From Rhizobium sp. Q54 (lineage in GTDB: Bacteria; Pseudomonadota; Alphaproteobacteria; SMXS01), in the NCBI GenBank assembly GCA_945907245.1, contig CAMDTB010000030.1:1-38768 (forward strand): a stretch of 38,768 nt of DNA, given 5' to 3'. This document shows positions 8,204 to 10,137 of the stretch, one piece after another; position 1 is the stretch's first letter; each line of letters opens with the position of its first letter. The notes under the pieces were generated by a model. The model was not told the origin of the DNA, made no database searches, and saw only the letters and a list, made by a program, of their open reading frames with translations. The translations under genes were made by a program, and so were the position numbers.

Positions 8204-8502
8204 ATCGCCGTGGGGACCGCGGCCAGCCTCGCGGGCGCGATGCTGTCGCCGCACGTCACGCACGTGCCGTAGGTCCAGTCATCGAGTCTCGCCAGTGCCG
8301 CGCGGATCCGGGCGATCTCGCCGCGCCCCGCATTCTCCAGAGCCGCGATCGCCTCGTCGTCCTGCAGGTCGACGGCCTGCTCCTCGAAGTCGGCATCCAG
8401 GGGCTGCCGCAGTTCGGCCTCGAGATCGTCGACCCTGTGGGTCAACGCCTCGAGCCGGGCCCGTAGCGCGAGAGCGATCGATTGGTGCGATGTCAAAGCC
8501 AT
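8158..8502 (-). CDS. TraR/DksA C4-type zinc-finger protein
   Basis: 114 residues from the ATG at 8502, which is preceded at very short distance by AAGGGAG. A coiled-coil-like N-terminal half (RLEALTHRVDDLEAELRQ) leads to the C-terminal zinc finger YGTCVTCGDSI...AMQCAGC, a Cys4 finger of the TraR/DksA family. Such proteins insert into the RNA polymerase secondary channel and modulate transcription, DksA with ppGpp; small C4 members are poorly characterised. The sequence upstream of 8502 stays open but looks non-coding. It sits between the permease and a host-attachment-family gene on the same strand, an accessory stress-type context. Confidence 0.85.
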   Translation of the reverse strand: MALTSHQSIALALRARLEALTHRVDDLEAELRQPLDADFEEQAVDLQDDEAIAALENAGRGEIARIRAALARLDDWTYGTCVTCGDSIAPARLAAVPTAMQCAGCAGATKSHRA

Positions 8503-8581: not shown

Positions 8582-8986
8582 CTAAGCCGCCTGGACTGTT
8601 TCGAGGACGTCCTTGCCGCTGCGGCCGGCAAGATCCTTCGCGATTTCCTTCAGAAGCGCGCCTTCCAGGTGGCTGCCGTAGTGGCGCCGCAACTCGCCCA
8701 GCGCTTTCGGCGGGGCAATGACCACCAGATGCGCGATCTTGCCGCCCCGGACCTGTCCGTTGAGCCACTCGGCGACAGCCGCGACATGCGCGTCCTCGTC
8801 AGCCAAGTGCCCCGTTGGATTCGCCGAGCTGGAATGATGACGGGTGCCGGCACCCTTGTTGTGCTCGTCGAGCTTCGGTGACGCCATGTCCGAGAGAACC
8901 GGATCGGCCTCGTTCCCGCTGTTGCGGTGCAGTTCGAAGTGACGGCCATCGATGACCGCGAGGACGGTTCCGTGGGGCAACAACAT
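8582..8986 (-). CDS. Host-attachment family protein (first of two paralogues)
   Basis: 134 residues. The start at 8986 is well supported by AAGGAG six bases upstream, and the sequence before it does not resemble the family. N-terminus LPHGTVLAVIDGRHFELHRN, then a variable GAGTRHHSSSANPTGH loop, HVAAVAEWLNGQV and the conserved HLVVIAPPKALGELRRHYGSHLEGALLKEIAKDLAGR. This is the family named 'protein required for attachment to host cells' from an Agrobacterium mutant; a real biochemical role is not established, and a relation to release-factor-like folds has been proposed. The copy at 25570-26055 shares the VIADG/VIDG, LVxxAPxKALG and KDL segments. A possible Fnr/FixK site lies upstream at 9127-9140. 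Confidence 0.85.
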   Translation of the reverse strand: MLLPHGTVLAVIDGRHFELHRNSGNEADPVLSDMASPKLDEHNKGAGTRHHSSSANPTGHLADEDAHVAAVAEWLNGQVRGGKIAHLVVIAPPKALGELRRHYGSHLEGALLKEIAKDLAGRSGKDVLETVQAA

Positions 8987-9126
8987 GTTGATCTCCTTGA
9001 AGTTAGGCAATTGATACATGCCGTTGATCACGGACCGTGGGGAACGAATCTCCCCGATTGCGATTTCTCGGCCGCTGAAACCTCCAGCACTTGATTGCAT
9101 GGTAGAAGCCGGCGCCGCGTCGTTCA

Positions 9127-9140
9127 TTGATCTGCCTCAA
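9127..9140. promoter_or_regulatory. Fnr/FixK-like box
   Basis: TTGATCTGCCTCAA fits TTGA-N6-TCAA and differs by one base from the Fnr consensus TTGAT-N4-ATCAA. It lies 141-154 bases upstream of the minus-strand host-attachment gene and about 200 bases before modA. A similar box precedes the second host-attachment gene. Pattern match only. Confidence 0.45.
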
Positions 9141-9291
9141 GCACGACCGCGATCAAGTGTTCCTGGCCGGTCCAGCCCGGGAAGCCATGCGGCACTATCT
9201 GCGCACCGGGGCACGGGAACCGGCGGCGTCACAAAATTCCTCCGACCGGCGGTGGAAATGCCCGATCCAGCGAATTTTACTTGCCGGCAGT

Positions 9292-9315
9292 CGATATAGT
9301 CAGACAGATATAGCG
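9292..9315. promoter_or_regulatory. Mo-box-like operator before modA
   Basis: A 24-base near-palindrome with CGATATA and TATAGCG half-sites separated by 10 bases. ModE-type molybdate repressors bind operators of this length with CGnTATA-type ends. It ends 21 bases before the modA start, where a bound repressor would block transcription. No modE gene is in the window. Confidence 0.6.
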
Positions 9316-9336
9316 AACCAAAATCTGGAGGGGATC

Positions 9337-10137
9337 ATGCTGTTCAACAACGCCGCGCGCCGCGCCGCGCTGGCCGGCCTGGCGGCCGTCGCGCTGGCAA
9401 TGGCGACGCTTGTGCCGGTCACCGGAGCCCGGACAAATCAAGAGCAGGTCTCGGTGTTCGCCGCCGCCTCGCTGACCAACGCGATGCAGGATCTGGGCAA
9501 GGCCTATACGGAAAAGACCGGCGTGAAGGTGGTGTTCTCCTTCGCCTCCAGCTCGGCCGTCGCCCGCCAGATCGAGGCCGGTGCGCCCGCCGACCTGTTC
9601 ATCTCCGCCGATGCGGAATGGATGGATTACCTGCAGCAGCGCAGCCTGATCGACGTCGCGACCCGCAAGGACATCCTGTCCAACCGGCTGGTGCTGATCG
9701 CGCCGGCGGACAGCAACGTCCAGCTGAAGATCGCCCCGGGTTTCGCGCTGGCTGCGGCACTGGGCACCGACGGTCGCCTGTCGACCGGCGATCCGGACTT
9801 CGTGCCCGCCGGGCGCTATGCCCGCTCGGCGCTGTCAAACCTTGGCGTTTGGAACGACGTTACCGACCGGCTGTTGCGCGCCGAGAACGTGCGCACGGCC
9901 CTGGCCTTCGTCGCCCGCGGCGAGGCGCCGCTCGGCATCGTCTATCTCAGCGATGTGGGTGTGGAAAAGAAGGTGCGGATCGTCAACACATTCCCCGCGA
10001 GCAGCCACCTGCCGATCGTCTATCCGGCGGCCATCGTCAAGGGCGCCAGGCCCGGCGCGGCGGCGTTCTACGCCTTCATTCGCGCGCCTGAAGCGCGGGC
10101 CGTGTTCGAGAAGTACGGCTTCATCAATCCGCAATAG
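9337..10137 (+). CDS. modA: Molybdate ABC transporter substrate-binding protein
   Basis: 266 residues from the ATG at 9337, which has GGAGG five bases upstream; an in-frame ATG at 9127 is too far and lacks a ribosome site. Residues 1-30 are a signal peptide (RRAALAGLAAVALAMATLVPV). The mature protein begins with the ModA signature VSVFAAASLTNAMQDL, followed by SFASSSAVARQIEAGAPADLFISADAEWMDYL, whose serines bind the oxyanion, and DRLLRAENVRTALAFVARGEAPLGIVYLSD. Delivers molybdate (or tungstate) to a ModBC permease for molybdenum-cofactor synthesis. modB and modC do not follow: 48 bases on is a broken glutamine amidotransferase. The upstream Mo-box suggests molybdate repression. Confidence 0.95.
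   Translation: MLFNNAARRAALAGLAAVALAMATLVPVTGARTNQEQVSVFAAASLTNAMQDLGKAYTEKTGVKVVFSFASSSAVARQIEAGAPADLFISADAEWMDYLQQRSLIDVATRKDILSNRLVLIAPADSNVQLKIAPGFALAAALGTDGRLSTGDPDFVPAGRYARSALSNLGVWNDVTDRLLRAENVRTALAFVARGEAPLGIVYLSDVGVEKKVRIVNTFPASSHLPIVYPAAIVKGARPGAAAFYAFIRAPEARAVFEKYGFINPQ

Follow-up and report, generated by a model that had tools for sequence, protein, structure and literature searches.

The ModE protein of Escherichia coli is a molybdate-dependent repressor of molybdate transport, and Studholme and Pau are said to have described conserved ModE sites in 2003. The E. coli-type consensus is given as ATCGNTATATA-N6-TATATANCGAT in the excerpt of PMC545781 available to us, which also calls molybdate sensing by the single-domain ModE of Desulfovibrio unclear. 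MopA and MopB of Rhodobacter capsulatus repress transport genes via Mo-boxes when molybdate is present (PMC6925177, in part), and Geobacter metallireducens has lost the DNA-binding domain of ModE while vestigial sites remain (PMC2700814, in part). The portion of PMC6147048 available to us held nothing on a ModE regulator.

Here we describe a putative operator of this kind in Rhizobium sp. Q54. The window, that is, the whole stretch of 38,768 nucleotides that was analysed, is contig C30 of a 3.34-Mb draft genome (G000; 136 contigs, 98.3% complete). Positions 9292-9315 of the window, CGATATAGTCAGACAGATATAGCG, read CGATATA-N10-TATAGCG over a 24-bp span. We consider it very probable that a ModE-family repressor uses this repeat as its operator, the regulator most likely being the one-domain ModE of the genus, whose gene probably lies in an assembly gap. 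The features around the site are as follows.

9128 to 9336, no strand: intergenic region between modA (+ strand) and the divergent ORF 8582-9127 (− strand), with the box at its modA end
9292 to 9315, + strand: predicted ModE-type operator (Mo-box) CGATATA-N10-TATAGCG, from pattern scans and the loci of relatives
9327 to 9333, + strand: GGAGGGG, likely ribosome-binding site of modA, read directly from the sequence
9337 to 10137, + strand: modA, molybdate ABC transporter substrate-binding protein, 266 aa, from TIGR01256 and other NCBIfam and Pfam models

A preliminary description of this DNA had placed the site 21 bases before the modA start, and this placement was borne out: bases 9316-9336 separate the box from the ATG at 9337, and modA is the sole TIGR01256 match in the G000 genome at E 0.001 (E 1.8e-66). 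The same description had called the site a 24-base palindrome with CGATATA/TATAGCG ends; its span and ends stood, full palindromy did not. Read directly, the 7-base ends match each other inverted at 6 of 7 positions, and the central 10 bases are asymmetric, so the site is an interrupted palindrome. A sigma-70-like match was absent from the + strand of the scanned region and was found by the promoter scan only on the − strand, from 9303 to 9274, where it overlaps the box; the modA promoter was therefore not placed. That promoter-like match lies on the strand of ORF 8582-9127, which runs divergently from modA and encodes a baeRF family 12/Host_attach protein.

The CG-to-CG core of the E. coli-type consensus is 24 bp long, equal to that of the site, and by eye 15 of its 20 specified positions are matched by 9290-9317. 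The site thus has three features of a Mo-box: two CGNTATA half-sites over a 24-bp span, a position before a molybdate transport gene and conservation at orthologous positions. We also examined 80 named loci from other Proteobacteria (the best 80 of 577 relatives), and here the element CGTTATAT-N8-ATATAACG precedes modA in several loci of Serratia and Yersinia.

When CGNTATA-N10-TATANCG was scanned with up to two mismatches, the modA site was the sole match within the window; shuffled windows gave a mean of 0.07 matches, and 7 of 100 held at least one. It was also the sole exact match in the whole G000 genome (3,339,118 bases in 136 contigs). At up to one mismatch the genome held two sites and so did the reversed-pattern control, so that genome-wide enrichment is not shown by the count alone. 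The expectation of further copies near molybdenum genes was not borne out by the other candidate sites, C1:75752 (one mismatch) and C35:28737 (two mismatches to a longer pattern), which lie by ABM-domain and MFS-transporter genes and by no gene that we recognised as a molybdenum gene. This lack of further boxes is explained by the situation in G003 and G004, where the modA site is likewise the sole one genome-wide with up to one mismatch.

Within the genus of Q54, exact half-sites occur in G000, G003, G004 and G006, and those of G002 carry one mismatch, while the spacer and the third base vary; the box of G000 is identical to that of G004. The box of G001 has decayed, and no site was seen in G005, which was left out of the half-site alignment (A1). 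Beyond the genus, we examined 370 bases around the start of the modA match at 30 loci, with windows of the same loci as controls. A site with up to two mismatches was found at 11 of these 30 loci (our own included) versus 0 of 166 control windows, of which 5 reached three mismatches. The 30 loci represent 30 of the 36 modA matches, those of G007, G048, G052, G056 and G057 and the second copy of G050 having no locus. Outside this count, G007 has both ModE and a one-mismatch site, which precedes its modA match by about 12 bases, G048 has ModE, and G034 has ModE and no modA match. Among the 80 named loci (the best 80 of 577), a site with up to one mismatch occurred in 29, which include Serratia and Yersinia loci, versus 8 of 2,556 control windows.

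Several sites in the relatives are of interest in their own right. The decayed box before modA on G001:C2 (L017) reads CGCCATAGTCAGACAGATACGGCG; that genome is estimated to be 100% complete and has no ModE match, and here the operator is likely to have decayed once its regulator had been lost. G006 has a second perfect box at G006:C82:48182-48205 (L098:1501-1524), directly in front of a gene whose outer-membrane product belongs to the Alginate_exp family (PF13372, E 2.6e-45) and is possibly a molybdate-regulated porin. Tandem boxes with one and zero mismatches stand at G002:C1:1963548-1963598 (L090) closely before the gene of a secreted-looking 170-aa protein that had no match in Pfam or NCBIfam, and this gene is a candidate new ModE target.

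Presence of the site went together with presence of ModE, which was called with TIGR00637 at E 1e-6 in 60 genomes and found in 17. Among the 30 genomes with a modA locus, and with up to three mismatches allowed, a threshold chosen after the data were seen, ModE was present in 14 of 16 genomes with a site versus 0 of 14 without (Fisher 8e-7), the two exceptions with a site and no ModE being G000 and G001. The corresponding counts were 10 of 11 versus 4 of 19 at up to two mismatches (Fisher 4e-4) and 7 of 8 versus 7 of 22 at up to one (p 0.012); for exact sites they were 4 of 5 versus 10 of 25, which is not significant (p 0.16). Because the compared genomes are related and not independent, these p-values are only a guide. 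Among the best 80 of 577 named loci, ModE was found in the fetched DNA of 32 of the 39 with a site of up to two mismatches versus 9 of the 41 without; the discordant loci are these 9 and the 7 of 39 with a site and no ModE, and as the fetched stretches range in length from about 5 to 17 kb, the absence of ModE from them is a lower bound. In G006, modE and modA are divergent neighbours, and a perfect box, L068:8331-8354, separates the likely modA start at 8313 from modE at 8484.

The preliminary description had also found no modB, modC or modE locally. This is right for the window, as searches of the G000 genome for modB, the ModE domain and TOBE gave no place on C30, but the genome does hold modB (TIGR02141) and modC (TIGR02142, with a TOBE domain), together at G000:C88:2359-4133. 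No box precedes this modBC locus: in the 500 bases ahead of modB, the closest match to the site has five mismatches here and four in the six other genus genomes. In those six genomes modA and modB lie on separate contigs or, in G002, about 1 Mb apart on one contig. The modA/modB split is therefore common to all seven genus genomes examined; the location of modC was determined in G000. In three genomes of the same family, G007, G008 and G009, modA adjoins a modB-like gene, both of those in G007 being distant relatives (27% and 32% identity).

Of the split pair, modA alone has a box, so the binding protein would be the component under control. When molybdate is plentiful, a ModE dimer would sit on the two CGNTATA half-sites and block transcription of modA, and the periplasmic molybdate-binding protein would be made only when molybdenum is scarce. 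Both binding of ModE to the box and repression by molybdate are predicted by analogy: ModE should repress modA in molybdate-replete cells as MopA and MopB (PMC6925177, in part) and E. coli ModE repress their targets.

The preliminary description looked to a ModE-family gene in this genome, and none was found in the 136 contigs. TIGR00637 searched in G000 at E up to 1 gave only two weak matches (E 3e-4 and 0.02), and both were rejected as ModE, being HTH_1 proteins with a LysR substrate domain; the four HTH_1 proteins of G000 were rejected as hidden ModE on the same ground, with that domain present in all four. A free-standing Mop was also sought among the TOBE proteins and rejected, the best match being ModC. 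The second TOBE match we take to be another ABC ATPase, and the third, below the cut-off, is presumably a peptidase.

At the same threshold as above, modE is carried by G002, G003, G004 and G006 and not by G001 or G005. In G004 it adjoins a kinase-like gene, whose translation we take to be that of a PAS/histidine kinase. Our contig C107 tracks this modE region of G004 at 94% identity up to its last base, 7951, which falls inside the kinase-like gene; for the roughly 7 kb of the G004 contig past that point, the matches seen were either short, at most about 130 bases, or distant, with no more than 72% identity. The DNA searches around the gap scored only 40 of 256, 432 and 309 first-look candidates. 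The far flank is covered by contig C49, which aligns with G003:C58:604-3631 at 94% and collinearly with G002 over 4.5 kb at 86%, about 0.7 kb from the C49 end; this side is made less certain by repeated genes with several overlapping alignments. The two contig-end matches are about 16 kb apart in G003 and 14.5 kb apart in G002, with modE inside. The missing ModE would thus be explained by its presence in four relatives of the genus and by its expected place here falling between contig ends; an assembly gap is the likeliest cause, and modE is presumably present in the real genome. The G000 contigs C11, C85, C96, C103, C115 and C135 each open with 118-149 bases that share 99% identity with the start of G003:C58, and the repeat at these six contig starts probably breaks assemblies in the genus.

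A true loss of ModE in the species, which would leave the box a recent relic and modA expressed without molybdate control, seems to us quite unlikely. It would account for the lack of ModE in the G000 assembly, and it has parallels in G001, which lacks ModE at E 1e-6 in 40 contigs estimated to be 100% complete and has a decayed box, in G005, which has neither ModE nor box, and in the vestigial sites left after loss of the ModE domain in G. metallireducens (PMC2700814, in part). However, the G000 box is undamaged and identical to that of the ModE-bearing G004, and a contig that ends inside the neighbouring gene, with only short or distant matches for about 7 kb of the G004 contig beyond it, is more in keeping with unassembled sequence than with excision of a single gene. 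A genuine deletion of larger size in G000 is conceivable. That a different, unrelated regulator reads the palindrome is very improbable: ModE went unseen in G000 and four LysR-type proteins are present there, but across genomes this site, at an unchanged span, accompanies ModE, and the 14 genomes that lack a site (more than three mismatches) all lack ModE as well. A chance repeat in a promoter, conceivable for a short site whose genome-wide count at up to one mismatch equals that of the reversed control (2 versus 2), is practically negligible given 0.07 matches expected per window at up to two mismatches and half-sites kept in four other genus genomes (with one mismatch in one) while the spacer and the third base vary.

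We therefore return to the genus ModE as the expected reader of the box. In G002, G003, G004 and G006 it is 117-122 aa long, with 13-15 residues after the HTH match, and matches TIGR00637 at E 2.5e-20 to 1.6e-22; its scores fall short of the curated 98.5-bit cut-off, a value reached by only 1 of the 60 genomes. The C-terminal molybdate-binding domains of a full-length ModE were not found in it: Pfam detected no TOBE in the two proteins tested (G004 and G006), and the full-length ModE of G051 does match TOBE. The preliminary reading of the site as a ModE- or Mop-type operator thus narrows to ModE, for which the span, the ends, the position before modA and the co-occurrence speak; the Mop part falls away with a genus ModE that has no recognised Mop/TOBE domain. 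Among 18 of the 21 ModE matches (all but the three weakest), a long C-terminal part occurred at one locus, L045, with two TOBE stretches. The 32 named loci with both site and ModE, drawn from the best 80 of 577, divide evenly: the ModE frame is short (up to 204 codons) in 16 and long in the other 16. Both forms of ModE thus occur with this box, and the one-domain ModE is not peculiar to the genus of Q54.

Because the genus ModE has no recognised molybdate-binding domain of its own, the molybdate signal may have to come from a partner. This arrangement, an E. coli-type Mo-box read by a one-domain ModE that depends on a partner for the signal, is a tentative proposal that we regard as rather unlikely. 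It is suggested by the TOBE search of G000, in which the best and strong match was ModC, making the TOBE domain of ModC, encoded at the box-less modBC locus, a candidate partner of ModE. If this were true, the transporter itself would tell ModE whether modA may be made. In any case, the short regulator, its site and its target gene together offer a simple setting in which to test molybdate sensing by a one-domain ModE.

The locus adds a well-supported ModE operator, and within the genus the split-off modA is the transport gene that bears the box. The site is ordinary in kind; the split modA and the one-domain ModE are a modest lead. As in G. metallireducens, a site persists where no ModE was found (PMC2700814, in part), but in Q54 the site shows no damage and an assembly gap is the likelier explanation; the closer parallel is G001. 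With the R. capsulatus system (PMC6925177, in part) it would by analogy share the molybdate-dependent repression of molybdate transport genes by ModE-like proteins acting at Mo-boxes, whereas the R. capsulatus operon is mopA-modABC and no Mop-type regulator was found in G000. The ModE of Desulfovibrio resembles that of the Q54 genus in consisting of the DNA-binding domain alone, but its predicted sites are CGGTCACG-N14-CGTGACCG (PMC545781, in part), whereas the E. coli-type box is kept here. Compared with the E. coli-type consensus (PMC545781, in part) and the Mo-boxes of the Serratia and Yersinia loci, the site has the same CGNTATA half-sites, the same 24-bp core and the same position before modA; unlike in those systems, modA stands apart from modBC, and modBC has no site.
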